Shown: in pieces, positions 1,243-36,357 of the stretch | Position numbering within the stretch: position 1 is the stretch's first letter | Layout: each line of letters opens with the position of its first letter | Virus record (IMG/VR): IMGVR_UViG_3300031198_000006 | Location: 1-36,546 of that record | DNA: 36,546 nt | Origin: a virus | Reading direction: 5' to 3' (one strand) | Translations under genes and position numbers: made by a program | The notes under the pieces: model-generated | What the model was told of the DNA's origin: nothing | The model's input: the letters and a program-made list of their open reading frames with translations, nothing else | Databases searched by the model: none

Positions 1243-2090
1243 AGTACGCAGCTCTTCATGGCGCGTTCGTGCGCTTCGCTGCTGCTGGCGCGACCGACGC
1301 CGCGCTGGGCGCTTGGGCCCGTGTGATGGTCCTCGCGTCCGAGCTCGAGACGCAGGACGAGGAGGCCCCCAACACGGCCCGCCTGGCTGGTGCAGCGACG
1401 TGGGACGACCGCCGGTGGATCTCGGCGACGGGCACGGACAGGGCGGGCGTCCAGACTGCCGTGGGCGCAGGCCTCGCGGCCTTCGATGGCGACGACCTGG
1501 TGGTGTTCGGGTACGACGCGGAGGGCCACCAGAAGACGACCACCCTCCGCGACAACGGACGGTTCGGCAAGCTCGGCGGGCGGCCGAAGGCCAAGGGCGC
1601 GGAGGAGAAACCCTCGGCAAAACCCTCAGGGTTAAAATCCGAAACCCTGGGCGAAACCCTGAGGGTTAAATCTCAAAACCCTGACGGTAACCCTGACGGT
1701 AACCCCCTACCTCTCCTTCCTACCTCTCCTTCCTTACCTACCTACCTACCTCCGCGGGCGGACGAGCCGGCCGCAAGTCCGCAACCCTCGGAAGCTCTCC
1801 GAGCCCACCTCGAGGCGGTCGTCGCGGCAGAGTTCGAGATCCGGGGAGTCGACCCCCAGAAAGCATCCGCGGGCTTCTGGCGGGACGGGGCCTCGCGCGT
1901 CCAGCTGGCGGTAGCGCAGGGTAAGTTCCCCGACGCCGGGGAGGCCTGCGGGGCGCTGGCGCGGGTCGTGGTCGCGGCGTGCTCGAAGCGCGGGGGCAAG
2001 CTCGGCTTCGCGCTGCAGCAGGAACCCTTCGCCGAGGCTCGCCGCCCGCTCGGGCTGGTGCGTGGGCTCAACGCCGCGGAGGACGTGTGA
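1239..2090 (+). CDS. Phage replication initiator-like protein (O-protein position)
   Basis: A 283-residue protein starting at a GTG that overlaps the previous stop. Residues 1-115 look like the N-terminal DNA-binding region of phage replication proteins. They include WISATGTDRAGVQTAV.AGL, GDDLVVFGYD and a GKLGGRPKAKG tail, a combination common in phage replisome organisers. Residues about 120-175 are low complexity and are encoded by iteron-like repeats (1607-1752). The C-terminal domain (about 180-283) is helical and may contact the helicase. The next gene encodes a DnaB-type helicase, so the pair parallels lambda O/P and similar initiator-helicase modules. The function is inferred from context and N-terminal features, because no catalytic motif is present. 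Confidence 0.65.
   Translation: MKYAALHGAFVRFAAAGATDAALGAWARVMVLASELETQDEEAPNTARLAGAATWDDRRWISATGTDRAGVQTAVGAGLAAFDGDDLVVFGYDAEGHQKTTTLRDNGRFGKLGGRPKAKGAEEKPSAKPSGLKSETLGETLRVKSQNPDGNPDGNPLPLLPTSPSLPTYLPPRADEPAASPQPSEALRAHLEAVVAAEFEIRGVDPQKASAGFWRDGASRVQLAVAQGKFPDAGEACGALARVVVAACSKRGGKLGFALQQEPFAEARRPLGLVRGLNAAEDV
1607..1752 (+). repeat. Iteron-like repeat cluster, candidate replication origin
   Basis: The cluster lies inside the initiator gene. Two imperfect 34-bp units sit side by side (1607-1640 and 1641-1674). Each contains a 13-bp palindrome, AACCCTCAGGGTT at 1621-1633 and AACCCTGAGGGTT at 1655-1667, followed by TAAA. Next come two exact copies of AACCCTGACGGT (1677-1688 and 1689-1700). 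Then follows a pyrimidine-rich tract with two exact copies of CCTACCTCTCCTT (1706-1718 and 1719-1731) and a CTAC run. Repeats within an initiator gene are the known layout of lambda-type origins; the origin role here is inferred. Confidence 0.6.
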
Positions 2091-3391
2091 ACAAATCCGT
2101 GCCGAACGCAGACGCCGACCTCGAGTGGGCCATGGCCGCGGAAGCCGTGTACGCCCACGACCGCTACCTCGCGCTGGCCGTGAACGCCGAGGACTACGGC
2201 TTCGAAGACCCACGCCACGTCGCCGAGGCCGCGCGCGAGGCCTGGGAGGTCGATGGTGCCGTCACGCTCGAGACGGTCGCCAAGGCCCTGCAGCGGACCG
2301 GGAAGCTCCTGCGCGTGGGCGGCCCGGATGGTCTCGCCGCGAAGCTGCACGCGCCCGCGGTCCCGGACGTCGAGCGCCTGGTCGAGTTGCGCCGGTTGCG
2401 CGCGGTCACCGCGGCGGCGACCACGGTGCTGCTCGCCGCCGAGCGGGGGGACCTGCAGGCCGCGCTCGGCGCGCTGGGCGAGGCGCAGACCACGGCCGTG
2501 GATGGGAACCGCGTCCAGGCGCACGAGGGTTACGAGATGGGGCGGCGCCAGCTCGAGCGGCTGCAGCAGCGCCGGCATGCGACCGCGCTCGTGCACCCGG
2601 GGTTCGAGTACCTGGAGCTCGCCACGGGAAGCCTCCCGCTCGGCGGCATGACCGTGCTCGGCGGCGGCACCAACGTGGGCAAGTCCAGCTTCGCGCTGGA
2701 GCTCATGGCCAAGGCGGCAGAGCGCAGCGTGGTGAGCGGCTACGTGAGCTGCGAGGACCCCGAACCGATCGTGAGCGCGCGCCTGGTCTCGGTCTACTCG
2801 GGCCTGAGTTCGCGCAAGCTCATGACCGGGGCGATCTCCGACCACGAGTGGCCGCGCCTCGGCGCTGCCCACGAGCCGATGCGCGAGATGCGCGGGCGCA
2901 TGTGGTTCGCATTCGCGGTAGGCGGGAGCGACGTGGACGTGTGCGCGGCGATGAGCCGGTGCGCGATGCAGGGCGCGAAGGTTGTGATCGTGGACTACGT
3001 GCAGGCGATCGAGTCCAGCAAGCGCCAGCAGGACCGCCGCAATGAGATCCGCTGGCTCGCGGCGCGCCTCAAGGCTCACGCCCAGCGGCTGAACGTGCAC
3101 CTCGTGCTCGTGTCGCAGCTGTCCCGGCCCACGAAGGGCGATGAGGCCCGCGAGCCCAGTAAGCACGACCTCAAGGAGGCCGGCGACCTGGAGAACGCGG
3201 CGGACTACATCGTGCTGCTGTGGCGCGAGCGTGAGGACGACTTCGCGGAGCTGCGCGCCAAGCTGGCCAAGTCGAAGCTCGGGAACGTGGGCGCGACGTG
3301 GAAGCTCGCCCGCCATGAACGCACTGCTCGACTCGAGGAGGTCGAAGGCACGTACGAGAGCGCGGCCCAGCGCAGGAAGGCCGCCCGATGA
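2087..3391 (+). CDS. DnaB-type replicative helicase
   Basis: A 434-residue hexameric helicase that should unwind DNA 5' to 3' at the phage fork. An N-terminal helical domain (about 10-135) matches DnaB-N. The RecA-like domain has Walker A GGTNVGKSS (193-201), a catalytic-position acidic run SCED (221-224), Walker B VVIVDY (299-304) and the sensor SQLSR (343-347). DLENAADYIVLLWR (367-380) is the typical DnaB motif 4 region. The GTG start overlaps the initiator stop, so the two are probably translationally coupled. Length is close to bacterial DnaB. No primase domain is visible, so a host primase is probably used. Confidence 0.9.
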   Translation: MNKSVPNADADLEWAMAAEAVYAHDRYLALAVNAEDYGFEDPRHVAEAAREAWEVDGAVTLETVAKALQRTGKLLRVGGPDGLAAKLHAPAVPDVERLVELRRLRAVTAAATTVLLAAERGDLQAALGALGEAQTTAVDGNRVQAHEGYEMGRRQLERLQQRRHATALVHPGFEYLELATGSLPLGGMTVLGGGTNVGKSSFALELMAKAAERSVVSGYVSCEDPEPIVSARLVSVYSGLSSRKLMTGAISDHEWPRLGAAHEPMREMRGRMWFAFAVGGSDVDVCAAMSRCAMQGAKVVIVDYVQAIESSKRQQDRRNEIRWLAARLKAHAQRLNVHLVLVSQLSRPTKGDEAREPSKHDLKEAGDLENAADYIVLLWREREDDFAELRAKLAKSKLGNVGATWKLARHERTARLEEVEGTYESAAQRRKAAR

Positions 3392-3693
3392 AAGCGCGCG
3401 AGTTCGCAACGCATCACCTGCTACGCGAGGCGCGAGAGCGCATTCTCGAGCGGCACAAGCGCAGCGCTCCGAGCGAGCTGTCACGGGCGCTCGCGAACGC
3501 TCGAGCCGAGATGGCGCCGGTGGACGCCACGATCCGCGTCGCCCGCAAGCGCGCGGGTCTGGCGCAGTTCATCCACGAGCGGTTCGGCCACGAGGAGTGG
3601 CCAGAAGACACGCACGCGAAGATCGCGGCGATGGGGCTGTGGCGGCGGGAGCTCGCTGAGATGGCGCGGGCAGAGGGGCTGGACGTCGAATGA
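3388..3693 (+). CDS. Hypothetical helical protein
   Basis: 101 residues. ATG overlaps the helicase stop (ATGA). The protein is rich in Arg, Ala and Glu, predicted mostly helical (LLREARERILERHKR, ALANARAEMAPVDATIRVARKRAGLAQFI). No known domain was recognised. Its place directly after the helicase suggests an early role, but nothing in the sequence shows which one. Confidence 0.65.
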   Translation: MKAREFATHHLLREARERILERHKRSAPSELSRALANARAEMAPVDATIRVARKRAGLAQFIHERFGHEEWPEDTHAKIAAMGLWRRELAEMARAEGLDVE

Positions 3694-4567: not shown

Positions 4568-4836
4568 TCGAGGCGCTCTCATGCCCCGAGTGCCACGCGG
4601 AGGGCTACCGTGCCCTGGGCGCGCATGCGCTGGGCGTGCGGGTCTCGTGCGCGCTGTGTGGCTGCGTGTACCTGCTGCCAAGCGTGCGGCGGCTCAGGGA
4701 GCGCGCGGACCGCTGGGCGGTGGACGAGCCGAGCTACCACCCACCGCGCGTTGCGGGCGCGCATGAGCCTGCGCCAGTGGCGCGGCGCTCGTTCTGGGCG
4801 CGGCTGGGTGCGTGGTGGAGGGCGCCATGGGCGTGA
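4564..4836 (+). CDS. Small zinc-ribbon protein
   Basis: 90 residues from a GTG overlapping the previous stop. CPEC near residues 7-10 and CALCGC near 29-34 form a two-knuckle zinc ribbon. The C-terminal half has an Arg- and Trp-rich tail (RRSFWARLGAWWRAPW). Such proteins often act as nucleic-acid or protein adaptors. It overlaps the RusA-like gene by ten bases, and the exact role is unknown. Confidence 0.6.
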   Translation: MIEALSCPECHAEGYRALGAHALGVRVSCALCGCVYLLPSVRRLRERADRWAVDEPSYHPPRVAGAHEPAPVARRSFWARLGAWWRAPWA

Positions 4837-5324
4837 AGCTGGCAAACCCCGCGGACGAGACGCTCTTCGAGATGCTGGTCTGCACCGGCGTGGACCAAGC
4901 GACCGGCACAATCACGTACACGAGCGCCGAGTCCGTGGGGTTCGTGGTGCCCGGGGTGCCCGTGCCTTGGATGCGCGCGCGGAAGCGTGGCAAGCGGCAC
5001 TACACGCCCCCGCGCATGGCAGCACACCAGGAGCGCGTGGCCTATGCGTTCAACGCCGCTGTGGGCCATGGCTGCTGGCGCCCTGATGGCATGTTCCGCG
5101 TAGCCTACGAGTTCGTGCTGCCCGACTGGCGCGTGGTCGACCTCGACAACCTCCGCAAGCTGCCGAACGACGCCCTGAACAAGCTCGCGTGGGTGGACGA
5201 CAGCCGCATCATGGAGGACCCAGGCCGCAAGATCGTGGACGCGACGCGGCCGAGTTGCACGCGCATCACCATCACGCGCCTCGGCGACTGGCCCGTGAAG
5301 TCGCGGAAGGTGAGGCGCCCATGA
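4827..5324 (+). CDS. rusA: RusA-type Holliday-junction resolvase
   Basis: A 165-residue endonuclease that should cut Holliday junctions symmetrically before packaging or after recombination. The RusA signature is clear: VVDLDNLRKLPNDALNKL with acidic residues at 105, 107 and 115, then AWVDDSRI with D124 and D125. The fold core begins with GVPVPWMRARKRG, matching the strand that opens RusA proteins. ATG 4827 is preferred over GTG 4812 because a GGAG lies just upstream. An N-terminal extension of about 35 residues precedes the domain. It fits with the Bet/exonuclease pair on the left arm, as in lambdoid phages. Confidence 0.88.
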   Translation: MGVKLANPADETLFEMLVCTGVDQATGTITYTSAESVGFVVPGVPVPWMRARKRGKRHYTPPRMAAHQERVAYAFNAAVGHGCWRPDGMFRVAYEFVLPDWRVVDLDNLRKLPNDALNKLAWVDDSRIMEDPGRKIVDATRPSCTRITITRLGDWPVKSRKVRRP

Positions 5325-7932: not shown

Positions 7933-9819
7933 ATGGACTACGGCGACACGCAGCGGCGAGCAGAGTTCTGGTGGGACGCCCCGAAGGGTGTAGTAGGCAT
8001 GGCGGTCATCCGCATGGCCGACAGCATCGTGAACCAGCAGCGCGCCCAGCGGGAGGACACGCGCTTTTACATGGACTTGTGCAGCAACTCCAACACCGCG
8101 GGCAATGACACCTACGCGCTGCTCTCGAACGGCAAGCGCTGGGGCTGGGACCGTAAGATGCGCCAGAACATCTGCGCGGCGGGCGTGGACACGGCGTCGT
8201 CGCTCATCGCGCAGAACCGCACCGCGCCGATGTACCTGACAAGCCTGGGCGACTTCACGCTGTCGCGGAAGGCCGAGCAGCGCTCGCGGGTCTTACACAG
8301 CCAGTTCTATGACCTCGGCATCTACCGCAACATGCCCGAAGCGTGGCGTGACGGCGGGGAGACCGGCACGGGCCACCTCTTCGGCTGCGTGCGCAACGGG
8401 CGGCCGTATGTCGAGCGCTGCCTGCCCAATGAGGTGCTGGTCGATGACATGGACGGCCGCTATCGCTCGCCGCGGTCGATGTACCGGGTGCACTTCGTGG
8501 CGCGCGAGCAGCTTCGGAAGCTGTACAAGGACGTCGAGGGCATCAAGGAGAGCGGCGGCCCGTCTGCTCACGACTACATCGATTTCAACCTGCGCACGGA
8601 CGCGTGCGTGGACCGCGTGCGCGTCCTCGAGGCCTGGCACCTGCCCAGTGTCACGGGCGGAGACGACGGGCGGCACGTCATCTGCACAGACAAGGTGGTG
8701 CTCCGAGACGAGCCATGGAAGCGTGACCGCTTCCCGTTCGTGCGCGTCGCCTATGCGGAGCGGCGTATCGGCTACTACGGCCAGGGCCTGTGCGAGCGTC
8801 TCGCGGGCGCCCAGATCCAGCTCAACGAGGTGAACGACACCATTCGCGACTGCCAGCGCCTGCTCAGTAACGCCATGGTCTGGATGGACGAGAACGACGA
8901 GGGCGCGTGGGAGGACATGACGAACATGCCCGGCCAGGTCTACCGCAGCAGGACGCCCCCGCAGCTGCTCAGGTGGGAGGCGACGCCGGGCGACCTGTTC
9001 CGGGAGCGCCAGGTCATCAAGGAAGACGCCTTCGACCAGGAGGGTCTATCCGCCTCCATGATCTCCGGCGACGGCGGCAGCGCCGGCCTCTCGAGCGGCC
9101 GGGCCATTCGTGCCGAGGACGACGTGCGCTCGCGGCGTCACATCGACCCCACGCGAAGGCTTGAGTACGCGTACCTCGACGTCACGCAGCTCATCAGCGA
9201 CCTCAACGACGAGTGCGCCGAGCTTGACCCGGACTACGTGGTCACCGGGCGCGCGCGCTTCGGGCGCCAGACGTTCCTGCGCACGTCCAAATGGAAGGAG
9301 CTCGAGCTGCCGGACGGGGACGTGCGCGTGAACATGTTCCCCATGGCCGCCCTCCCGACCACCGTGCAGGGTAAGTTCGCCGCGGTGGACGAGTGGATCC
9401 AGGGGGGCTTTGTGAGCCGGCCCCAGGCGCTCGACCTGATGGAGTTCCCCGATATCGACGCCTGGCAGCAGCTCGAGAATGCGAACATTGACCTGGTGCG
9501 CTGGCAGATCGAGCGGCTGCTCGACCTGGCCGAGGGTGAGCCCGGGGAGCTGCCGATCGAAAACCAGGACATTCCGATGGCAGTCAAGTTCATCAATCAA
9601 GCCTTTCTGGTCGCCTATCGCATGCAGGCGCCCGCCCACGTGCAGCTCGCGTTCCAGACCTACCTCGCCTACGCCAAGCAGCTCACGGACAAGCTCGCCG
9701 CGGAGGAGGCCGCCCAGGCCGCGCCCCCGCCCGAGTCCATGGGCCCCGCCGCGCTCGACCAGAACGCCGCAGCCGCGGCCCAGCTCGCCGCTCCGCCGGC
9801 AGGGGGCATCGCAGCATGA
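7933..9819 (+). CDS. Portal (head-tail connector) protein
   Basis: A 628-residue protein expected to form the dodecameric DNA portal at one capsid vertex. Features matching T7 gp8/SPP1-type portals include an N-terminal region that meets solvent-exposed wing helices, a central FPFVRVAYAERRIGYYGQG followed by GAQIQLNEVNDTIRDCQRLLSNA (the long stem-forming helix region), then SGRAIRAEDDVRSRRHIDPTRRLE. The C-terminus is Ala/Pro-rich. It sits between terS and the scaffold gene, exactly where a portal belongs. Portal identity rests on these patterns and order; no alignment was run. Confidence 0.8.
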   Translation: MDYGDTQRRAEFWWDAPKGVVGMAVIRMADSIVNQQRAQREDTRFYMDLCSNSNTAGNDTYALLSNGKRWGWDRKMRQNICAAGVDTASSLIAQNRTAPMYLTSLGDFTLSRKAEQRSRVLHSQFYDLGIYRNMPEAWRDGGETGTGHLFGCVRNGRPYVERCLPNEVLVDDMDGRYRSPRSMYRVHFVAREQLRKLYKDVEGIKESGGPSAHDYIDFNLRTDACVDRVRVLEAWHLPSVTGGDDGRHVICTDKVVLRDEPWKRDRFPFVRVAYAERRIGYYGQGLCERLAGAQIQLNEVNDTIRDCQRLLSNAMVWMDENDEGAWEDMTNMPGQVYRSRTPPQLLRWEATPGDLFRERQVIKEDAFDQEGLSASMISGDGGSAGLSSGRAIRAEDDVRSRRHIDPTRRLEYAYLDVTQLISDLNDECAELDPDYVVTGRARFGRQTFLRTSKWKELELPDGDVRVNMFPMAALPTTVQGKFAAVDEWIQGGFVSRPQALDLMEFPDIDAWQQLENANIDLVRWQIERLLDLAEGEPGELPIENQDIPMAVKFINQAFLVAYRMQAPAHVQLAFQTYLAYAKQLTDKLAAEEAAQAAPPPESMGPAALDQNAAAAAQLAAPPAGGIAA

Positions 9820-10882: not shown

Positions 10883-12121
10883 ATGGCAACGACCCAGACG
10901 ACTGACGTCAGCTACATCAGCAAAGTCATCTACAAGGACGGCATTCAGCAGAAGCAGATCGTGCGTGATAAGGCGCTGCTGACTGCGACCAAGCACAACA
11001 CGAAGTTTACCTCGGCCGAGGGCATCAAGGTCCCGATCCTATACGGCACGGGGCAGGGCGCGAGTGCGACCGTGGCGAACGCCGCGAGCAACGCCTCGCC
11101 TGACGCGGGCGAGGCCTTCACGGTCACGCAGGCGACCTACTACACCAATTTCGATATCCACGGCAAGGTCGTGCGCAACGCCCTGAAGGGGAACGACGAC
11201 TCGTACTTCCTGCAGCAGCTCAAACTCGCCATGGACAACGCCCAGGAAACCATGGGCAGCGAGCTCAACCGTCAGGCCTTCGGCACGTCCGCAGGCTGGC
11301 GCGCGCGTGTGGGCGGCGCTGCCCCCACCGGCAGCACCATCGTGCTGGCGAATCCGCAGGACGCGGTCTTCTTCGAGAAGAACATGATCGTCGTGCTCGC
11401 GGCGACGCCCACGGGCGCCATCCGCGCGGGCACGCCGGGCTCGGCCAAGATCACGAAGGTGGACACGTCCACCGGCATCCTGACCGTGGAGGGCACGATC
11501 ACCACGCTCATCACCACGCCCGGCGCGGGCGACTACATCTTCCGCCAGGGCGACGCGCAGAACGGCGCCGCGAGCGGCCTTCTCACCTCGGGCCTCGCGG
11601 ACTGGAACCCGCAGACGGTCACGGCCACGCCCTTCTTTGGCGTGGACCGCACGTCGTTCCCCAGCCGCCTTGCCGGCGTGCGCTACCCGGGCTCGAACGA
11701 CCCGCTGGAAACGGTCTTTATCAAGGCCATGGCAGCAGGTCGCGCGGAGGTCGGCAGCGGCTTCAAGAAGGGCGACCTTTTCCTCAACCCCATCAACTTC
11801 GCCGCCATCCAGTCCAGCAAGGAGGGCGGGCGATGGATCACGGAGCCGAGCTCGTACGGCATCGGCATCGACAAGTTTCAGATCGGGGCATTCAAGTTCG
11901 TCGAGGACGCCATGTGCCCGGTCAACGTCGCGCACATGGTGGCAGACGGCGCCTTCGAGCGTGCGAGCTGCGGCGACGCGCCGTACTGGAACAACTTCGA
12001 CGGGGCGGACATGTGGCTCGACCGCGCCACGGACCAGTACAAGGGGCAGCTCGTCCACGACGGCAACTTCATCGCCGTGCACCCGCAGCAGCTCATGCGG
12101 ATCGAACTGCAGGCGGCGTGA
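10883..12121 (+). CDS. Major capsid protein
   Basis: 412 residues. The order portal-scaffold-this gene, the length and the sequence style (long beta segments with TYYTNFDIHGKVVRNALKGNDDSYFLQQLKLAMDNAQETMGSELNR, seen in pieces as the spine-helix region) suit an HK97-fold capsid protein. A Gly/Thr-rich central part (about 165-225) may be the E-loop or an insertion. The C-terminal WNNFDGADMWLDRATDQYKGQLVHDGNFIAVHP is consistent with a P-domain end. Likely present in hundreds of copies per virion. Confidence 0.8.
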   Translation: MATTQTTDVSYISKVIYKDGIQQKQIVRDKALLTATKHNTKFTSAEGIKVPILYGTGQGASATVANAASNASPDAGEAFTVTQATYYTNFDIHGKVVRNALKGNDDSYFLQQLKLAMDNAQETMGSELNRQAFGTSAGWRARVGGAAPTGSTIVLANPQDAVFFEKNMIVVLAATPTGAIRAGTPGSAKITKVDTSTGILTVEGTITTLITTPGAGDYIFRQGDAQNGAASGLLTSGLADWNPQTVTATPFFGVDRTSFPSRLAGVRYPGSNDPLETVFIKAMAAGRAEVGSGFKKGDLFLNPINFAAIQSSKEGGRWITEPSSYGIGIDKFQIGAFKFVEDAMCPVNVAHMVADGAFERASCGDAPYWNNFDGADMWLDRATDQYKGQLVHDGNFIAVHPQQLMRIELQAA

Positions 12122-18238: not shown

Positions 18239-19868
18239 CTACTCCGAACTATTCCGCCAGAACCCTCAGCTGTTCGCGCAGGTGATGGCCTCGCTGTCTG
18301 GCGCGGTCGGCTCGAGCGCGTCCGCCGAGCAGCCGCCCCCGGCCGTCGAGGCGCCGCCGCCGGTCCAGCAGGCGCCGCCCGTCGAGCCGATGCCCACCCA
18401 GGCGCCAGCCCCCGCGCCGCCGCCCGTGCAGGCCCAGCCCGTCCAGCCACCGCCCGCGCCCGAGCCGCAGCTGGTGGAGCCGCCCCCGCCTGTCGAAGAG
18501 CCTGCGCCCGCGCCCACCGGCCCCATCGACATGCGCGTGACGCCGGATGTGACGCAGCCCCAGGGCTCGCTCGGTCAGCAAGGGGCGCAGCTTCAGGCCG
18601 AGGACCTGGCCGCCGCGAACGAGACGGCCACAAGCTTCGAACGCGAGGGCGACGCCAAGGCGCTCGCGGCCAGTGAGGCGGCGAAGATTTACGGCGCCCA
18701 GGCGGACGTCGCTAACCGGTACGCGCGGGCGGCCGAAACGGGTTTCAAGGACCATCAGGACCGCGCCGCGAAGTACCGGCAGATGGAGGACGAGGACTAC
18801 GCGCGTCTGCAGCAGGAGCCGCCGAAGCCCGGCCACCTGAAGAACATCTTCAACGTGATCACCGGAATTATCGGCGCGGCGGCGGGCGGCGAGCAGGGCG
18901 CGGCGATCGGCATGCTGCGCCAGCATGTCAACCGCCAGGCCGAGGAGGACGCGCAGGAGCGGGCGGCGGCCGAGAAGCGTCTCGAGGTGGGCGGCAGGAT
19001 TCAGGACCGGATCCTGCGCGACTCAGCGAACGAATTCGACGCGGCGGCGAAGCTCGTGGCGGGTCAATGGATCGTGGCCTCGCGGCAGCTCGAGCAGGTC
19101 GCGAATGAATCGAGTGTGCCCGCCTTCAAGGAGCAGGCGCTCAGGCTCGCGGAAAACTGCAGGCAGCAAGCCCGGGACGGGCTGAAGCACAACGTTGCGG
19201 CGCAGACGGCGCAGGAGGAGGCCGCTCAGGCCGCGGCAGCCAAGGCGCGCGCGGGGTCCATGCGCACGAAATGGGACGAGATGTCGCAGCGCGACCTTGA
19301 GCTGTATGCGTCGAAGGGCCTGCTCCCGATCGCGGTCGCCAAGAAACTCGCGGAGACGCAGAAGGCGCAGCGTGAGGCGCCGGGCGACGCGGCCAAGAGC
19401 CCGCGGTCTATCCCTGGCCGCGAGGTGGTGGACCCGGCGGCATTCGCGTCAGTGCGCGATGTCGACCTTTCAAGCTTTCGAAGCGCCCAGTCGGGCATGA
19501 AGGCGCTCAACAAGACGCTGGATGAACTCGATGCGCTCCTTGCGCAGCACGGCACCGAAGCATTTGGGAACGTGGCCGCCGAAATGGAGACCAAGGCTGC
19601 GACTGCGCTCGGGACCATCAAGGACGTGAAGAATCTAGGCACGCTCGACAACGGTCTGCTTACGTTTGGCGAGAAGCTCCTGGGCGACCCGACGAGCATG
19701 TACAAGACGGGGGGGTCAGTCCGCACGCGCATCAAGGCTACGCGCGACGCGCTCAACGAGGAGCTTGAGTCAAAGGCGGAGGATATGGGCCTCAGCCGGC
19801 GCAAGGACACCACGGTGGACGACCAGGCCGCAGCGTTCGGCGCCGTGCCGCTGGCGGGCTCCCCCTGA
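18231..19868 (+). CDS. Putative internal virion protein 2
   Basis: 545 residues from a GTG overlapping the previous stop. After the shared N-terminal motif comes a Pro-rich linker (about 34-102), then long alanine-rich helices (AQEEAAQAAAAKARAG), a glycine-rich hydrophobic helix (IFNVITGIIGAAAGGEQGAAIG, about 206-230) that could insert in membrane, and a C-terminal helical region. This suits an ejection protein that forms a channel. No enzyme motif was seen. Confidence 0.55.
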   Translation: MADYSELFRQNPQLFAQVMASLSGAVGSSASAEQPPPAVEAPPPVQQAPPVEPMPTQAPAPAPPPVQAQPVQPPPAPEPQLVEPPPPVEEPAPAPTGPIDMRVTPDVTQPQGSLGQQGAQLQAEDLAAANETATSFEREGDAKALAASEAAKIYGAQADVANRYARAAETGFKDHQDRAAKYRQMEDEDYARLQQEPPKPGHLKNIFNVITGIIGAAAGGEQGAAIGMLRQHVNRQAEEDAQERAAAEKRLEVGGRIQDRILRDSANEFDAAAKLVAGQWIVASRQLEQVANESSVPAFKEQALRLAENCRQQARDGLKHNVAAQTAQEEAAQAAAAKARAGSMRTKWDEMSQRDLELYASKGLLPIAVAKKLAETQKAQREAPGDAAKSPRSIPGREVVDPAAFASVRDVDLSSFRSAQSGMKALNKTLDELDALLAQHGTEAFGNVAAEMETKAATALGTIKDVKNLGTLDNGLLTFGEKLLGDPTSMYKTGGSVRTRIKATRDALNEELESKAEDMGLSRRKDTTVDDQAAAFGAVPLAGSP

Positions 19869-25394: not shown

Positions 25395-25652
25395 ATGAAC
25401 ATGGTCCTACTCAACCTCGGCGACGCAACCGCCGTCCACGTCAACCCGGCCCAAGTCTCGCACGTCGCGGAGCTGCCCGGCGGCGCAGGCTCCGAGGTCA
25501 CCATGGCCACCGGCTCGAGCTTCCAGGTCGCGGAGGGCTTAATGTTGCTGCTGTCTACATGGAGACGGCTGGCGGCTCGACCGCGCCCGCGGTGGTATGC
25601 TCCGCCCGGGAGGAGGCGGTCATGCGCGCGTGGGGGCTGTGGGCTGTGCTGA
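25395..25652 (+). CDS. Small protein, C-terminus probably altered by a junction
   Basis: 85 residues, with AAAGGAGA ahead of the ATG. Residues 1-48 read as a small beta fold (VLLNLGDATAVHVNPAQVSHVAEL, EVTMATGSSFQVAEG) that resembles short FlbD-like phage proteins. The remaining residues are Arg/Pro/Trp-rich and run across a 19-bp palindrome (25542-25560) and into the following lipoprotein gene. This looks like an original end lost to insertion of the accessory region. Function unknown. Confidence 0.5.
   Translation: MNMVLLNLGDATAVHVNPAQVSHVAELPGGAGSEVTMATGSSFQVAEGLMLLLSTWRRLAARPRPRWYAPPGRRRSCARGGCGLC
25542..25560. promoter_or_regulatory. 19-bp operator-like palindrome, site 1
   Basis: ATGTTGCTGCTGTCTACAT. 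The outer ATGT/ACAT arms are perfect and the inner positions imperfect. It lies 62 bp upstream of the lipoprotein ATG and belongs to a family of related sites between 25.5 and 29.0 kb. Confidence 0.5.
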
Positions 25653-25972
25653 CGCTGGCGGGAGTAGGCTGCGCGCCGAAGGTCGTGTCAGGCGGCATCG
25701 AGGTGTACGAGAGCATCTGGGAGCGGACCGACCGCGACCTGCGCTACCGGGCGGCCATGGAGCTGCGCTGCAGCCACGACATCGTGCGGCTCACGCTCGT
25801 GCAGCGGCAGGGCAAGTTCCCGGTACTCGTGCACGCGGAGGGCTGCGGCGCCCAGGCGCTCTACAGCCGGCAGCTGAGGCGCCACCACGGCCAGTACACG
25901 GACAAGAACTCGGACTGGACGGTGGAGTCGAAGAGCGCCGCCGAGCAGCCCGCGCTCAGCCAGTACCCGTAG
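25622..25972 (+). CDS. Secreted lipoprotein-like protein (moron), Myxococcota-type pattern
   Basis: 116 residues, with GGGAGGAGG six bases before the ATG. The N-terminus MRAWGLWAVLTLAGVGCAP is a signal peptide with a weak lipobox and Cys17, so it is probably lipid-anchored. The mature part has RYRAAMELRCSHDIVRLTL then VHAEGCGAQALYSRQ. The RAA-x-E/D-L-x-C ... GCG-x-A-x-Y pattern is one I know from many Myxococcota lipoproteins. It may alter the lysogen's envelope, for example by excluding other phages; an o-spanin role is also possible. Function inferred only. Confidence 0.6.
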   Translation: MRAWGLWAVLTLAGVGCAPKVVSGGIEVYESIWERTDRDLRYRAAMELRCSHDIVRLTLVQRQGKFPVLVHAEGCGAQALYSRQLRRHHGQYTDKNSDWTVESKSAAEQPALSQYP

Positions 25973-25991: not shown

Positions 25992-26010
25992 ATGTTACCA
26001 CCGCAAACAT
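25992..26010. promoter_or_regulatory. 19-bp operator-like palindrome, site 2
   Basis: ATGTTACCACCGCAAACAT, closely matching site 3. It lies between the convergent lipoprotein gene and the RHH gene (stop at 26017), so it is not upstream of either start. It could be a second contact or looping site. Confidence 0.45.
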
Positions 26011-26016
26011 GTGCGC

Positions 26017-26202
26017 TCAGTCCGACAGGCAGCGCGCGCGCACGTACTCGGCCACGCTGTCGCAGCCTGCCCGCTTCGCCCGCAGCTGCAGGGCCGCGTG
26101 CTCGGCGGCGGTGAGCTTGATGCGCAGGCTGCGGTCCGCCACGGTGCCGTCTGCGGTGCGCGCGCGGCGCCCTGGGGGCTGGCCGGTGGGCTTGCGGGGC
26201 AT
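26017..26202 (-). CDS. Ribbon-helix-helix DNA-binding protein
   Basis: 61 residues, starting at ATG 26202, which overlaps the stop of the upstream gene. The sequence DRSLRIKLTAAEHAALQLRAKRAGCDSVAEYVRARCL has a ribbon strand, a helix and an xxSVAEYVR helix as in CopG/MobC-type RHH proteins. It is probably a small transcription regulator. Two of the 19-bp palindromes (25992 and 26730) bracket its operon, so it is the best local candidate to bind them. That link is inferred. Confidence 0.7.
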   Translation of the reverse strand: MPRKPTGQPPGRRARTADGTVADRSLRIKLTAAEHAALQLRAKRAGCDSVAEYVRARCLSD

Positions 26203-26729: not shown

Positions 26730-26748
26730 ATGTTTACACCGCAAACAT
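26730..26748. promoter_or_regulatory. 19-bp operator-like palindrome, site 3
   Basis: ATGTTTACACCGCAAACAT, arms matching at 7 of 8 positions. It sits 34 bp upstream of the leftward ATG at 26696, in promoter position. A poor -35-like TGTGACA lies beside it on the minus strand. Confidence 0.55.
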
Positions 26749-27461: not shown

Positions 27462-27480
27462 ATGTAAACGATGGCAACAT
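27462..27480. promoter_or_regulatory. 19-bp operator-like palindrome, site 4
   Basis: ATGTAAACGATGGCAACAT, upstream of promoter unit B. It is imperfect but shares the ATGT/ACAT ends and the inner C...G pair. Its centre is about 47 bp from site 5. Confidence 0.45.
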
Positions 27481-27508: not shown

Positions 27509-27527
27509 ATGTAGGCGCTGTCAACAT
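27509..27527. promoter_or_regulatory. 19-bp operator-like palindrome, site 5
   Basis: ATGTAGGCGCTGTCAACAT, with inner arms nearly matching site 6. It lies between the leftward genes at 27556 and 27335. Confidence 0.5.
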
Positions 27528-28921: not shown

Positions 28922-28940
28922 ATGTAGACAGCGTCTACAT
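28922..28940. promoter_or_regulatory. 19-bp operator-like palindrome, site 6 (perfect)
   Basis: ATGTAGACAGCGTCTACAT, 8-bp arms with a 3-bp centre. It lies 15 bp upstream of the secreted-protein ATG (28907), directly before its ribosome site. A degenerate copy, AAGTTTGCAGTGTCTACAT, follows at 28956-28974. Confidence 0.6.
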
Positions 28941-29045
28941 TCGCCTGTCCGAGAGAAGTTTGCAGTGTCTACATCAAGGTCCCCGACGCGGACCGGGGCT
29001 GCCAGCCGAACAGCTCACAAGCGGGCGCGGCGGCCTCCGAAAATA

Positions 29046-29241
29046 CCCCACCAGTTACCCCACCAGGACCGTTATCCGGGGGGTAGGGACGGGCGCGTCT
29101 GTGGTGTTTTCTAGCGTGAAAATGCAACTTACTCCCCCTCCAAAACCCCTTGTGTAAAAGGGCCTGATCTACGTGAAGCCACTGGTTACCCCTATTTTTT
29201 AGGGGTCTTCTTCGAAGTTGCCCCACCAGGCACCCCACCAG
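29046..29241. other. Candidate attP with integrase arm-type repeats
   Basis: CCCCACCAG occurs four times, as two 12-bp-spaced pairs: 29046-29054 and 29058-29066, then 29221-29229 and 29233-29241. The second pair lies inside the integrase C-terminus. The 154 bp between is AT-richer, with A/T runs and short inverted repeats. Paired arm repeats around a core beside int is the known plan of tyrosine-integrase attP sites. The core crossover cannot be placed without attL/attR or host data. Confidence 0.6.
29189..29205. terminator. Hairpin at the end of int
   Basis: Arms CCCCTA and TAGGGG with a TTTTT loop overlap the last integrase codons. There is no T run beyond the stem. It could end leftward transcripts or belong to the attachment site. 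Confidence 0.35.
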
Positions 29242-30451
29242 CGGGCTGCTTGAGCTGGACGACGTCCGCGCCCCCGAAGATTTTCCCCCCGATCCGGCTC
29301 TCGAGCTGGGTGGCGTGGTTTGCCGCGCGCGCCTGGCGGTGGGACTCGTCCGTGTACCCCTCGGTCACCCTCTGGTCGCCGTGGCCAACCGAGTCGCGCA
29401 GGTCGCGCTCAGCCTCGCGGTGCACGGCGTCGCTCTCGAGCGTGCGGGCAAGCGTCACGTGGGTGTGACGCAGTACGTGGGTGGAGGAGGCGAGGGCGAT
29501 GCCCAGGTCGCGCAAGAGGTCGCTCACGTGGTCCTGAACGGTGGAGTAGGGCCACGTGTCGTAGTGGCGCACGCGGCCGGTCGGCGGGCGCGGGAAGGCC
29601 CAGACGCCACTCCCCGGCCACCCCTTGGCTGCCATGTCCGCCCGGTGCCCGCGCAGGAACGCAAGCCCCTCCGGGCCGAGTGCGGCGGGGCGGGGCGTCT
29701 GGTTCTTCGGCGGGCCCATGGCGCCCTTGGTGCGCCCTTGGCTGCGCCGGATGACGATGACCCCCGTGTCCCAGTTGACGTCGGACCACTTGAGGGCGCT
29801 GGCCTCGCCCCACCGGCAGCCAAGCAGGAGCTGGCAGCGCACGAGCGGGTACAGGTCGGGGTGGCGCTCGAGCAGGGCCGCGAAGAACGTCGGCAGCTCG
29901 TCGCCCAAGAGCGCCCGCCGTGGGGGCGGGGCCTCAAGCGCGGCCAGGCGCTCGGCCGCGGTCTTCGGCGTGCGCCTGCGCAGCGTTTTCTCGATGGGGT
30001 TCTGACCCTGTAGACGGCCCTGGGCCCGCGCGTACCTGTAGAGCGCGAGCATGGACGTGCGGTAGCAGTTCGCGGTGTGGTCCGTGCACTTGAGCTCCGC
30101 GATCCAGCGCTGCACGTCGGCGGGCGGCACGTGCGACAGCTTGAGCTTGCCGAACCGTTCACGGAACCGCCTCGCGTGCGGCTCCCGGGTGCCGCGCGTT
30201 CCCGGCACCATCGTGGGCAGCCACGCGTCGATCGCCTCGTCCACGGTCCACTCGTCGCCCGTGCCAGCTAGCTCGTCGCGGATGCGCTCACGCTCGGCGG
30301 CGGCTCGTTTCTTCTCTTCGCGCAGCCCGCCGTCCGTGCTGACGGTGATGGACCGGTTCGTGTCGTGCTTCTTGCGCTTCGCGTCGCGCCAGACGATGCG
30401 CGCGTCCCATCTCCCGGGAGCAGTTCTCGTCAACCCATCGCTGCTTTTCAT
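29192..30451 (-). CDS. int: Tyrosine-family integrase
   Basis: A 419-residue site-specific recombinase for integration and excision. Catalytic residues are visible: R213 (LLGCRWGEASAL), a lysine in the beta-hairpin near 249, H325 and R328 (HVLRHT), H357 (VGHGDQ) and nucleophile Y366 (EGYT). An N-terminal SAM-like core-binding domain spans about 67-150, and the first 65 residues form an arm-binding-type basic region. The last ~30 residues contain GGVPGG encoded by attP-type repeats. A weak GAAAGGTG ribosome site precedes ATG 30451. It sits beside xis-like and attP-like sequences. Confidence 0.93.
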   Translation of the reverse strand: MKSSDGLTRTAPGRWDARIVWRDAKRKKHDTNRSITVSTDGGLREEKKRAAAERERIRDELAGTGDEWTVDEAIDAWLPTMVPGTRGTREPHARRFRERFGKLKLSHVPPADVQRWIAELKCTDHTANCYRTSMLALYRYARAQGRLQGQNPIEKTLRRRTPKTAAERLAALEAPPPRRALLGDELPTFFAALLERHPDLYPLVRCQLLLGCRWGEASALKWSDVNWDTGVIVIRRSQGRTKGAMGPPKNQTPRPAALGPEGLAFLRGHRADMAAKGWPGSGVWAFPRPPTGRVRHYDTWPYSTVQDHVSDLLRDLGIALASSTHVLRHTHVTLARTLESDAVHREAERDLRDSVGHGDQRVTEGYTDESHRQARAANHATQLESRIGGKIFGGADVVQLKQPAGGVPGGATSKKTPKK

Positions 30452-32033: not shown

Positions 32034-32311
32034 GCTGCCTCCCCTGCTTGCGGCAAGGCGAACGCGCCGAGCAGTGCGGCGACGGGCCTCGTGTCGAGCG
32101 CGTCAGCGATGACCCTTTGGACGTCAGCGAGAGCGTCAACGTGTGAGGCGCGGCCGGGTATGTAGCCAGCGCTCCAGTAATCGTCGCCAGACAGTGGGAC
32201 GAGCACCGAGCCGTACCAGAGCGAGGCCAGGCTGTTCCACTCGACTTTCGCAATGATGCCGAGGCAGCGCCGGGCGTGGAGGTCACTGTACTCCGTGATC
32301 GTGAAACTCAT
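32030..32311 (-). CDS. Hypothetical protein
   Basis: 93 residues from ATG 32311, overlapping the exonuclease stop. It contains [45 protein letters not shown] and a helical end. Predicted alpha/beta with no known motif. It lies in the recombination operon after the exonuclease. Confidence 0.55.
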   Translation of the reverse strand: MSFTITEYSDLHARRCLGIIAKVEWNSLASLWYGSVLVPLSGDDYWSAGYIPGRASHVDALADVQRVIADALDTRPVAALLGAFALPQAGEAA

Positions 32312-33159
32312 GCTGCCTCCGAGTCGTCTAGCCAAGCCGGCACGTCTGCCACCGTGATCTCGGACGGGACGAGCGGCCACTCGCCCGTCTCGTAGTGCTG
32401 CGCCAGCGCATCCAGCTGCTGCACGCACCAACGCTCGCCCGCGTCGATCAGCGCGGTGGGAATCTCGACCACGCGCCAGCGGTACGGGAACGCCTTCTCG
32501 GCGCCCAGCAAGAGGTACCTGAACGCAGACACGTCTACGCCCTCGTACTCGAGCGCGAGCCTGACCATGGCGGCCTGCCTGTGATAGCCGTAGGAGCAGA
32601 TCACGCGGCCGCTCTCGAGCTTCCGGAGCGTGGCGGTCGTTTTTAAGTCGAGGGCAAACGGGCGCCACTCGCTCGCCGCGGAGCCTTCGAGGCAAAGCCA
32701 GTCAGGCCGCGACTGAATGCCGGGCACGCCCCAGCGCCCGCGCACGGCGTCCTCGTGATAGATGGTCGCTTGCGGAATGCTGCCGGCCATTAGCGACTGC
32801 GAGATGGGGCAGCACTCCAGCGTCGAGATCAGCGCCTCGATGGCGCGCGCGTCGTCGCCGTCGACAATGGAGCGACCCATGGCTTCCTGGTCGCTCCTCC
32901 ACGCCTTGCCGTCCTTCGTGGCGAAGCTCATGCCGGCGGGCTTCGCGACGTAGCGCGCCGCGTACTCGGCCGGGCGCTGCAGCGCGTCCTCCATGGCACG
33001 GCCGGTGAGATAGGCGCGCGTGTCGTCGTCGGCGTGTGCGTGCTGCTCGTGCTTGATGAAGTAGCCACGTGCGCCGCGCTCGGCCAGCGTGCGCAGCTTG
33101 TGGTGCGACACGCGCTTGCTGGACAGGTACTGCTCAATCGGCATGTCGAGCGAGATCAT
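32308..33159 (-). CDS. RecE-type exonuclease (PD-(D/E)xK, DUF3799-like)
   Basis: 283 residues from ATG 33159. The nuclease core is visible: [12 protein letters not shown] (D153), then FALDLKTT (D171, K173), then [10 protein letters not shown] (Q195), the usual D..DxK..Q arrangement. The N-terminus ([19 protein letters not shown]...[14 protein letters not shown]) matches the RecE/VIII exonuclease start. It should resect DNA ends to leave 3' strands for the Bet annealase encoded just upstream, whose stop it overlaps. The pair is a typical phage two-component recombinase. Confidence 0.85.
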
Positions 33160-34031
33160 GCGGCCTCCCGCTTGGCGCGCGCGGCGTCGGCAACGTCCTT
33201 GGGGGTGAACTTGAGGGCCGTGCAGCGCTCGCCGAACGCCCGCCAAAAGACCTCGCGCGCCTGCTCGGGGAGGCGGTAGGCGTTTATCTGCTGCACTGCG
33301 TGGTTACAGAACTCCACGAGCGCGCCGAAGTCGTTCTGCGCAGCCAGTTCGGCGTGCAGCGTCGCGAGCACGGGGGCGGGGTCGCTAGCGCTGGCAGCCA
33401 GGGGCTTCGCCTGCGTCTTGGCCAAGGGGCGCTGCGTCGGCTCCTCGGCACTCTCGGCCTGGGCCATCTCTTCGGCGGTGTAGAGGCCGCTCAGCTCGTT
33501 CGGGAAGGCGGCGCGCAGGGCCAAGGCCTCGGCACACTTCGCCAGCATCACCTCCGGCATCGTTGCCCACATGCGGTTGGGGCGCGCCTTGCCTGACTGT
33601 TGGTCCTTCGTGGTCTGCACGTACGACGTATACTTGGCGACGCGGTAGAGCGGCTCGGCGAAGCCCTCGCGGTGCACACCCACGCGGGCAGCAGCGGGCG
33701 GGTCGTCGGCAAGCCACACATCCAGCCACTTGCCGTCCATTCCGCACCACTGGGGCACCGTCTGTCCGCGGTACTGGCGCGTGCGCTCGGCGACCAGGCG
33801 GAAGCCGTCGATGCTCACCTGCGCCTGCGCGACCATAGCGTTTGCGCTGCTGTCCCAGCGCTTCACGAGGTAGATCTGGCGCGCGAACGGGTCGAGCCGT
33901 AGGCGGTCACAGACCTGGACGAACAGGCGGAGTTCGCCGTCCGATGCGCCCTTGGCGATGGTCTGCTTGATCAGGTCCACCTGCTCCGTGGAGAGGCCGG
34001 TGTCCTGCACGCGTGCGAGGGCGGCGCTCAT
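33156..34031 (-). CDS. bet: Single-strand annealing protein, Bet/RecT family
   Basis: 291 residues. The N-terminal signature [47 protein letters not shown], read in parts, is diagnostic of phage Bet proteins. [46 protein letters not shown] and [15 protein letters not shown] follow as in RecT-family annealases. It anneals complementary strands with the RecE-like exonuclease encoded downstream. The C-terminal helix region (about 235-291) may bind the host SSB. Confidence 0.93.
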
Positions 34032-34333: not shown

Positions 34334-34626
34334 CGCCACTCCTCCGCCTCACTGATTGCCACTGGCCCGTAATCGTTCTCGAGCGCTTCCTGCTCACGGT
34401 GCGCCACGTCCGCGCAGTCGCCACACACGAGGTCGCACGGGTCGACGCGCTCCATCAGCGCGCGCTCGAACACGACGCCGCAGTGCTCGCACGCCGCCTG
34501 GTCCTCGCTGCAGGAGGGGCACACGCCGTCCTGCATGACGTCTTCGGGGTGAGGCAGTCCGCAGCCTCGGCCGCGGCAGCGCTCGACTCGCGTCTCCGGA
34601 CGCCCGCTGTCATGCGCGCGCATCAT
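34330..34626 (-). CDS. Multi-zinc-finger hypothetical protein
   Basis: 98 residues. Cysteines pair as RCRGRGCGLPHP, GVCPSCSEDQAACEHCGVVF and DPCDLVCGDCADVAH, suggesting two or three zinc sites. Such proteins could regulate or adapt the recombination module. Two tandem ATGs start it. Function unknown. Confidence 0.6.
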   Translation of the reverse strand: MMRAHDSGRPETRVERCRGRGCGLPHPEDVMQDGVCPSCSEDQAACEHCGVVFERALMERVDPCDLVCGDCADVAHREQEALENDYGPVAISEAEEWR

Positions 34627-34925
34627 TACGCCGCCCTCCGCGTCTCGAGCACGTACGCGCGCCCGTCCAGCACCGCAGCCGCCAGCGCATGCTCAGGCTC
34701 GCTGCGCAGCGCGTCTGCAGCCTCCTGGCCGAGCGCATCCGCCAGCGGCCACTCGCCCAGCACCTCGATGCACGCGTCGCCGTGGCGGTCCTCCCAGGCC
34801 TGCACGTCGACGTAGGCGCTCTCGCCGCCGCGCTCGAGCAGCAGGCGGTAGGTGTGGTCGCCGTCGTCCGGGCCAGCGGCCGAGACGATGTGCCAGCGGG
34901 GGTCAGGTTTTACAGCGGGGCTCAT
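34626..34925 (-). CDS. First gene of the leftward early operon, hypothetical
   Basis: 99 residues from ATG 34925. The sequence (RWHIVSAAGPDDGDHTYRLLLERGGESAYVDVQAWEDRHGDACIEVLGEWPLADAL) looks like a small alpha/beta domain. A promoter with a perfect operator sits immediately upstream, so the mRNA may start on the ATG. An upstream start at 34961 would lie inside the promoter and is less likely. The role is unknown; in lambda this position belongs to N, but no antiterminator features are seen. Confidence 0.6.
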   Translation of the reverse strand: MSPAVKPDPRWHIVSAAGPDDGDHTYRLLLERGGESAYVDVQAWEDRHGDACIEVLGEWPLADALGQEAADALRSEPEHALAAAVLDGRAYVLETRRAA

Positions 34926-34931
34926 GCGTAG

Positions 34932-34961
34932 AACATATCCCACGGATATGTCCCACGTCAA
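34932..34961 (-). promoter_or_regulatory. PL-like early promoter
   Basis: Minus strand TTGACG (34956-34961), 18 bp, TATGTT (34932-34937). Six bases separate the -10 from ATG 34925, so transcript start probably coincides with the start codon. A 19-bp operator overlaps the -10. Confidence 0.7.
34933..34951. promoter_or_regulatory. Repressor operator OL (perfect palindrome)
   Basis: ACATATCCCACGGATATGT: 8-bp arms perfectly inverted around CAC. It overlaps the PL -10 box, so binding would block RNA polymerase. Related imperfect sites flank the repressor-Cro gap at 36043 and 36097. Confidence 0.75.
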
Positions 34962-35025
34962 GCGTGGCGGGTCGCAGGCCTGCGATCACGCAGTCGCCGT
35001 GTACGATTTCGGACCTATCCGGCGG

Positions 35026-35292
35026 CTAGTTCGCGATCTGGCTGCCGACGTCTTCGGGCACGTAGACGTAGCCGCTCCGCTCGACCAGGTCGCGCACGAC
35101 GTCTTCGTCGCGCACGCCGACTATGGCCAGCAGGCGGCGGTAGGCCACGCTTGCGATTTCGTCGTCGCTCGCGCACAGGCCTATCTCGAGCACAGGGCCA
35201 TCCTGTCGCACGACACCCCAGTCAGGGACGCGCACCACCGTCAGCCCCGCACTCTTCGCGATTGCGCGTGCGCTCACCCCCCGGATCGCCAT
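35026..35292 (-). CDS. Rex-position hypothetical protein
   Basis: 88 residues from ATG 35292. It contains GVSARAIAKSAGLTVVRVPDWG and EIASVAYRRLLAIVGVRDEDVVRDLVERSGYVYVPEDV. It lies between the repressor gene and PL, reading the same way as the repressor, the place occupied by rexAB in lambda. This suggests expression in the lysogen. No HExxH or other catalytic motif is seen, and a GTG at 35355 is an alternative start. Confidence 0.5.
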   Translation of the reverse strand: MAIRGVSARAIAKSAGLTVVRVPDWGVVRQDGPVLEIGLCASDDEIASVAYRRLLAIVGVRDEDVVRDLVERSGYVYVPEDVGSQIAN

Positions 35293-35433
35293 AGGGGGTG
35301 GACTGTATGTTTCGGGACGGACGCGTTGCAATGACTTTTTGGCGGCGAGTCCCACCCAATGGGGTGATCCGCCCCGTCACCTGTCCTGGACCTGGGCGCG
35401 TTCGCGATCGCGTTGCCTGACACTCGCTGTGGT

Positions 35434-35449
35434 CGCAAGTCGGCTTGCG
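35434..35449. terminator. Short hairpin after the repressor gene
   Basis: CGCAAG-TCGG-CTTGCG, 6-bp arms and a 4-base loop, nine bases past the repressor stop. No T run. It may weaken read-through into the rex-position gene. Confidence 0.35.
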
Positions 35450-35457
35450 CTGCGCGC

Positions 35458-36021
35458 CTATTTCCGCGGCGGTTTCGGTGGTTTTGCCTGCGGTTTGTGC
35501 GGTTTCACCAGCTGCAAGGTATTGCGCCGCCGGTGCTCTTCGAGCTCGCGGTCAAGCGCGTCGTTTTCTTTCGCCACCTCCATGACCTGATCGAACGGGA
35601 TGCGCTCCTGCAGGGCGAGCGCCCAGGCCGCGTACAAGTTCGCGGTGGGTAGGATTTCGCCCGGGAAGCGCGTCGACTCCAGGATGCGCCGCTGCTCGGG
35701 CGTCGTCGCCTGGCCTATCTCCGTGCGCAGGAAATCGTAGAACACGCGCAGGCGGTGGCGCTCACGCGCGGCGGCCAAGTCGGGCTGCGTGAAGTAGTTG
35801 TGTGGCAGGCCGAGGACCTCGGCGGCCTTCTTTTGGTTGTCTGCGTTGAAACCCCGGCCGTCAATCCAACGTTTTACCGTCTGGTAGGGGGTCGTGTACC
35901 CCAACCGTTTCCCAAGTTCTGTGGGCGGCATGCCTGCGCGCTGCAGGGCCTCGCGCAGCAGCTCGCCTGGCGCGGCTGCAATCATTTCGTGCAGCAAGAG
36001 GAATGAATCCAGGGTGTGCAT
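35458..36021 (-). CDS. CI-type repressor (HTH, no visible S24 protease)
   Basis: 187 residues from ATG 36021. An N-terminal HTH of XRE type reads REALQRAGMPPTELGKRLGYTTPYQTVKRWIDGRGFNADNQKKAAEVLGL (about 24-72 in parts). The C-terminal half (RHRLRVFYDFLRTEIGQATTPEQRRILESTRF, then PTANLYAAWALALQERIPFD) is helical and ends in a Lys/Pro-rich tail. No LexA-like Ser-Lys protease signature is evident. It is the probable phage repressor, divergent from cro, with operators in the gap. How it is inactivated during induction is unclear. Confidence 0.8.
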   Translation of the reverse strand: MHTLDSFLLLHEMIAAAPGELLREALQRAGMPPTELGKRLGYTTPYQTVKRWIDGRGFNADNQKKAAEVLGLPHNYFTQPDLAAARERHRLRVFYDFLRTEIGQATTPEQRRILESTRFPGEILPTANLYAAWALALQERIPFDQVMEVAKENDALDRELEEHRRRNTLQLVKPHKPQAKPPKPPRK

Positions 36022-36041
36022 CACGTCAATAGGGCCACGGT

Positions 36042-36071
36042 GACATATCCGTCGGGTATGGTCACCGTGAA
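36042..36071 (-). promoter_or_regulatory. PRM-like repressor promoter
   Basis: Minus strand TTCACG (36066-36071), 18 bp, TATGTC (36042-36047). It overlaps the OR-like site at 36043-36061, as expected for autoregulation. Weak consensus match. Confidence 0.45.
36043..36061. promoter_or_regulatory. OR-like operator 1
   Basis: ACATATCCGTCGGGTATGG: the left arm is identical to OL and the right arm diverged. It sits over the -10 of the repressor promoter. Confidence 0.6.
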
Positions 36072-36076
36072 AAGTA

Positions 36077-36105
36077 TTGCATCCCACCCGAATAGGATGT
36101 ATCCC
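36077..36105 (+). promoter_or_regulatory. PR-like promoter of cro
   Basis: Plus strand TTGCAT (36077-36082), 17 bp, TATCCC (36100-36105). As at PL, exactly six bases separate the -10 from the ATG (36112). The -10 match is weak. Confidence 0.45.
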
Positions 36106-36115
36106 GGCAATATGT
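36097..36115. promoter_or_regulatory. OR-like operator 2
   Basis: ATGTATCCCGGCAATATGT: imperfect palindrome overlapping the PR -10 and the cro ATG, matching OL best in the outer bases. Confidence 0.5.
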
Positions 36116-36357
36116 CCGAGCTTGCTCGTTGGCTGTCCCACAACGGGGAAACCGCCACAACCCTGATGAAACGCACCGGCTTGTCGTGGGCGACGATCCA
36201 GCGCGCGGTCCACAAGACGCGGCGGCTGGACCTGAGCACGGCGATCCGGCTGCACGTCGCCACGCGCGGCGAGGTGCCGGTGGCGGCGTTCTCGCCCGAT
36301 GCGGGCGTGCTGGACGAGCTGGCCGCGCTGCGCAAGCCGCGCCGTAGGTCGGCATGA
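36112..36357 (+). CDS. Cro-like HTH regulator
   Basis: 81 residues from ATG 36112, divergent from the repressor. LARWLSHNGETATTLMKRTGLSWATIQRAVHKTRRLDLSTAIRLHVATRG is a compact HTH with a recognition helix near SWATIQRAVH. The end is basic (LRKPRRRSA). No Shine-Dalgarno lies close upstream, and the -10 ends six bases before ATG, suggesting a leaderless mRNA. Earlier starts at 36097 and 36058 are possible. It is probably the lytic-switch regulator of the rightward array. Confidence 0.7.
   Translation: MSELARWLSHNGETATTLMKRTGLSWATIQRAVHKTRRLDLSTAIRLHVATRGEVPVAAFSPDAGVLDELAALRKPRRRSA

Follow-up and report, generated by a model that had tools for sequence, protein, structure and literature searches.

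Described immunity switches and the layout of the locus

Switches of the type considered here are already well known, and those of the telomere phages N15 and PY54 resemble the present one closely in design. The immB regions of N15, phiKO2, and PY54 carry divergent repressor and cro genes, the N15 repressor has sites in the gap that separates the two genes (OR) as well as two sites at another promoter (OL), and the cro and cI mRNAs of PY54 have been mapped as leaderless. In the S. aureus phage phi11, three homologous operators separate the divergently oriented repressor and cro genes, and neither of its repressors recognizes the full set (PMC3991615). An arrangement in which a repressor and a Cro both read every site does not hold in PY54 or phi11.

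We analyzed the record IMGVR_UViG_3300031198_000006 over its full length of 36,546 bases (here called the window; ~69% G+C), which comes from an uncultured virus of bacteria. Judged from its gene order, its immunity region is that of a temperate phage with a lambda-like layout, in which a leftward repressor gene (35458 to 36021, minus strand; 187 aa, with an N-terminal HTH) is paired with a divergent gene encoding a Cro-like HTH protein of 81 aa (36112 to 36357, plus strand). A divergent pair of this kind marks a lambda-type region, as do recombination and integration genes in the PL operon, replication genes in the PR operon, and apparently related operators at the left and right early promoters, all of which are found here. 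The likeness to N15, phiKO2, and PY54 concerns the design, and OL drives recombination and integration genes here, whereas theirs drives repA.

As in lambda, the leftward operon from PL encodes an annealing protein, an exonuclease, and an integrase, cro and replication genes run rightward from PR, and the operators overlap the promoters. The left operon begins with a 99-aa gene (34626 to 34925, minus strand), probably leaderless, which had no Pfam match and a single weak, unnamed match in PHROG. Leftward of PL, two further small ORFs separate it from the gene for the RecT annealing protein (33156 to 34031, minus strand; Pfam RecT, 2.5e-30), and these are accompanied by an exonuclease VIII-like gene (32308 to 33246, minus strand; phrog_412, 6.6e-35), whose true start is probably internal to the ORF, and by the integrase gene (29192 to 30451, minus strand; phrog_1, 4.2e-40). 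The gene for a DnaB-like helicase (1979 to 3391, plus strand; Pfam DnaB_C, 4.2e-35) is placed downstream of cro because the end and the start of the window adjoin in a close relative, and the rightward operon therefore probably continues from cro. The positions that adjoin, in the relative's locus L004, are 1 and 36465, so that the record probably represents a nearly complete genome in circularly permuted form.

A conserved 88-aa gene of unknown family (35026 to 35292, minus strand; 53% identical in a distant relative, L017) lies between the repressor gene and PL. It had no Pfam match even at an E value of 10 when an ImmA/IrrE metallopeptidase was sought beside the repressor. It is preceded by a promoter-like sequence without an operator, TTGCAA-N18-TACAGT (35302 to 35331, minus strand), and TTGCCG-N18-TAGAGT stands at the equivalent place in L017. 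Among 50,697 sequenced phage records, window positions 12000 to 36546 had no DNA match, the repressor and the gene at 7933 to 9819 had none as queries, and the integrase query gave distant matches alone (<60% identity, in 9 records).

Operator sites and their conservation

Every window position was ranked by its match, out of 16, to ACATATCC-N3-GGATATGT. The perfect 8-3-8 palindrome that the initial annotation had placed at PL is present as OL1 (34933 to 34951), which reads ACATATCC-CAC-GGATATGT, is self-complementary at 8/8 positions, and sits in the PL spacer, overlapping the PL -10 box. Two weaker copies named in the same annotation are there as well, with scores of 14/16 and 12/16, respectively: ORM (36043 to 36061; self-symmetry 6/8), the candidate operator nearest to the repressor start, and OR (36097 to 36115; self-symmetry just 4/8), which extends over the -10 box of PR and the start codon of cro. 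The count of one perfect and two imperfect operators, correct for those three, overlooked a fourth site, a probable OL2 (35013 to 35031; 12/16) that overlaps the stop codon of the 88-aa gene. These four are the sites scoring at least 12/16 in the whole 36.5-kb window, and every one of them lies within 34900 to 36200; the fifth-best position, at 19770, scores 11/16. By chance, 0.14 sites of at least 12/16 would be expected per Markov copy of the window (300 copies; maximum, 3).

The 109-bp gap between the repressor gene and cro holds two sites of at least 12/16 and not a three-operator OR of the lambda type; N15 has three OR sites and PY54 one. Since 299 of 20,000 Markov copies of this gap reach at least 12/16 (~1.5%), the site at 36097, taken alone, is suggestive, and it is strengthened by the diverged relative L017, whose cro start carries a site of 14/16 in an identical register. 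As for the graded operator strength suggested previously, the PL site comes first however the sites are scored, but the two OR sites change places with the matrix used, the consensus score putting 36043 ahead of 36097 and a matrix derived from L017 putting 36097 ahead. A longer operator or hairpin around 36043, formed through the outer arms CACGGTGAC/GTCACCGTG, was considered and rejected, as these arms are not conserved in the close relative.

Two relatives with this region were found. The closer one, IMGVR_UViG_3300006969_000026 (loci L003, L004, and L009, also L018 and L022), matches the region at 85% identity and carries all four operator sites letter for letter (19/19), which is weak evidence because long coding stretches are also DNA-identical there; the 35013 site likewise lies inside a broadly conserved stretch. 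Within the repressor gene, positions 35670 to 35760 and 35860 to 35930 are identical in DNA between the two genomes, a pattern that suggests recent exchange.

The more distant relative, L017 (IMGVR_UViG_3300045977_000572), encodes a repressor 63% and a Cro 60% identical to those of the window. It has exactly two 14/16 sites, one at the PL position and one over the cro start (3591 to 3609), the latter homologous to 36097 and in the same register, while none of its 300 Markov copies contained any 14/16 site. The distance from operator to ATG is equal in the two phages at both PL and cro. When a matrix built solely from the two L017 sites was used to rank the window positions, the window's four sites took ranks 1 to 4 (26.3, 19.8, 17.6, and 13.4 bits); in 60 Markov copies, the means for these ranks were 11.9, 10.6, 9.9, and 9.3 bits, and the maxima were 16.8, 13.9, 12.1, and 11.5 bits. 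Between the window and L017, the PL operator is identical at 16/19 positions versus 22/60 flanking bases (Fisher P = 0.0004). For the PR operator, identity does not exceed that of the flanks (13/19 versus 39/60; P = 1), and the L017 version is closer to the consensus than that of the window. The 36043 site is intermediate (13/19 versus 26/60; P = 0.07), with a counterpart in L017 that is alignable but decayed (~9/16, counted by eye), and no counterpart of the 35013 site was located there.

In wider searches, the repressor query found no relatives in genome_contigs, phages, or plasmids; L020 and L021 gave 34% matches to the repressor that span 49 residues, and L016 (RecT, 48%), whose match to the window is confined to recT, had no site above 11/16. 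The palindromic sites are very probably real, and those at PL and PR form the firm core of the predicted operator set.

Two observations concern gene content in L017. The accessory gene at 25622 to 25972 (plus strand) has a homologue at 2300 to 2641 (plus strand) of L017 with 75% DNA identity over 255 bases, and, by comparison of its positions, this gene of the 25.6-kb region has moved, lying between PL and the 35026-type gene in L017. In addition, L017 has an extra HTH repressor-like gene downstream of a methyltransferase gene (4719 to 5051, plus strand; phrog_3, 6e-11), for which no window counterpart appeared among the tblastx matches listed.

Early promoters and the predicted repressor and Cro proteins

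The PL promoter (34932 to 34961, minus strand), found by a consensus scan, reads TTGACG-N18-TATGTT-N6-ATG, and its L017 equivalent reads TTGAAG-N18-TATATA-N6-ATG. PR (36077 to 36111, plus strand) reads TTGCAT-N17-TATCCC-N6 followed by the A of the cro ATG, against TTGTCA-N17-TATCCA-N6-ATG in L017; its -10 box, TATCCC, is a poor match to the consensus, and the scan returned PL alone. From this geometry, PL and PR transcription would begin at the A of the ATG. Because the -10 box lies 6 bases before the ATG, without a good ribosome-binding site, both mRNAs are probably leaderless. The predicted Shine-Dalgarno pairing was -4.0 kcal/mol for the PL gene, -4.9 for cro, -1.5 for the repressor gene, and +0.9 for the 35026 gene, whereas 13 of the 14 other gene starts pair at -5.3 to -11.4 kcal/mol, the exception being int at -3.9; these counts omit the 27336 start, misplaced by one base, and the alternative starts of cro at 36097 (-1.8) and of the repressor at 36024 (-1.5). 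The cro -10 geometry and weak Shine-Dalgarno pairing would fit a leaderless message as in PY54, and probable leaderlessness of the PL and PR messages sets the region apart from lambda.

The proposal that the 36043 site lies at a PRM-like promoter found no support. The sole promoter-like match there, TTCACG-N18-TATGTC, was dropped as the repressor promoter since it loses its -35 box in the 85% relative, and the operator itself has decayed in L017. No convincing or conserved promoter was located for the repressor gene. What survives of the lambda-like switch put forward earlier is thus the arrangement, the PL and PR operators, and the divergent repressor/Cro-like pair.

The repressor starts at an ATG (36021) or a GTG (36024). 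Its profile matches were HTH_3 (E = 0.0019, below the cut-off) and PHROG transcriptional regulators, with no LexA/S24-like autocleavage family in Pfam, PHROG, or NCBIfam. In the predicted structure (pLDDT 68, from a three-sequence alignment), the HTH is followed by helices only, as appears to be the case in the DdrO, Stl, and ImmR repressors. These are among the top structural neighbors, together with the P22 c2 HTH domain, but the good match is limited to the HTH (residues about 15 to 83), with Foldseek E values of 0.03 or worse. None of the structure matches listed, mostly to the HTH alone, places an autocleavage domain over the C-terminal half, and sequence searches against solved structures gave marginal matches alone. 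Unlike in lambda, the modeled repressor is a 187-aa protein with helices only and no autocleavage family match; the region also differs from lambda in having fewer operators and neither N nor CII among the proteins scanned. The Cro-like protein matched HTH_26 (E = 0.0007, below the cut-off), and its model (pLDDT 84.6) had the lambda cI N-terminal domain and Xfaso 1 Cro among its Foldseek neighbors (E = 0.1 or worse). Over the two HTH helices, the repressor keeps 13/17 residues between the window and L017 and Cro 7/17 (P = 0.08), a comparison that tends to favor the repressor as the protein recognizing the conserved sites, notably that at PL.

Control of the switch and its possible link to the moron cluster

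From the sites, the gene order, the promoter geometry, and the conservation at PL and PR, we infer, with a probability of about 0.78, a temperate-phage immunity region in which a predicted repressor dimer occupies the PL and PR sites and shuts both operons. The dimer would most likely bind the 8-3-8 sequences that start at 34933 (PL) and 36097 (PR), and, because each site overlaps a -10 box, the bound repressor would silence the leftward recombination and integration operon and the rightward operon of cro and replication genes in the lysogen. Both messages should start at the AUG. The sites at 36043 and 35013 would be secondary, probably serving repressor autocontrol, Cro action, or cooperative binding.

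The part played by Cro can be read in more than one way. A division of labor like that of PY54, whose Cro recognizes just one site, close to cI, is a tentative option: the repressor would read PL and PR, and Cro would act mainly or only at 36043, silencing the repressor gene. The decay of 36043 in L017, alongside a divergence of the HTH helices that is greater in Cro than in the repressor, points this way, but it is one comparison with a P value of 0.08, and in the window itself 36043 remains a 14/16 match to the shared consensus. We regard it as rather doubtful that the full lambda logic applies, with repressor and Cro on all sites in opposite orders of preference and a repressor that activates its own gene. 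The gene order and shared operators agree with it, and a leftward TACTTT box resembling a -10 element (36076 to 36071, noted by eye) puts 36097 at about -42, where OR2 lies in lambda; however, two OR sites were found instead of three, no good -35 box was seen for a repressor promoter, and L017 does not retain the 36043 site.

Readings in which the sites do not belong to the phage's own switch fare worse. That they are sites of a host regulator borrowed by the phage is very unlikely, given that genome_contigs contains a single instance of the exact motif with a TTG box, from an unrelated genome of 36% GC, and that, among the ten loci in viral_contigs with the exact motif, the clustered arrangement is seen in the close relative alone. 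Chance palindromes in AT-richer intergenic DNA deserve almost no weight: one perfect 8-3-8 palindrome per 36 kb is not rare by our own estimate, but the clustering, the conserved register, and the recovery of the sites through another phage's matrix contradict this explanation.

Beyond the repressor-operator switch that we favor, the window contains five palindromes in the moron cluster (25992 to 26010, 26730 to 26748, 27462 to 27480, 27509 to 27527, and 28922 to 28940), of the form ATGTNNNC-N3-GNNNACAT, with a further imperfect copy near 28957. They share the 8-3-8 format of the immunity operators. Their half-sites carry ATGT....C in 10/10 cases and those of the immunity region are mainly ACATATCC, so the half-sites do differ as the initial annotation stated; its separation of them into two regulatory codes is less secure, as both fit one 8-3-8 frame. 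The window contains this frame, AYRTNNNC-N3-GNNNAYRT, six times, at OL and at each of the five moron palindromes, whereas 400 Markov copies average ~0.2 (none in 332, three in one). The count is no independent test because the frame was drawn up after both sets of sites had been seen. The two codes may be related despite their differing sequences. Control of both the switch and the 26- to 29-kb moron cluster by one reader of an extended 8-3-8 family, either the phage repressor or a near paralogue, seems improbable, though somewhat less so than a host regulator; if it existed, accessory (moron) gene expression would be tied directly to the immunity decision. An alternative candidate reader of the moron sites is the product of a small gene at 26017 to 26202 (minus strand), with a match to a NikA-like ribbon-helix-helix protein (E = 4.2e-07, above the Pfam cut-off).

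Views of phage switches are not overturned by this region. It provides candidate operators and promoters for uncultured temperate phages that, for the queries used, have no close relative in the 50,697 phage records, and it is probably a further example of early transcripts without leaders whose operators cover the -10 box and the start codon.
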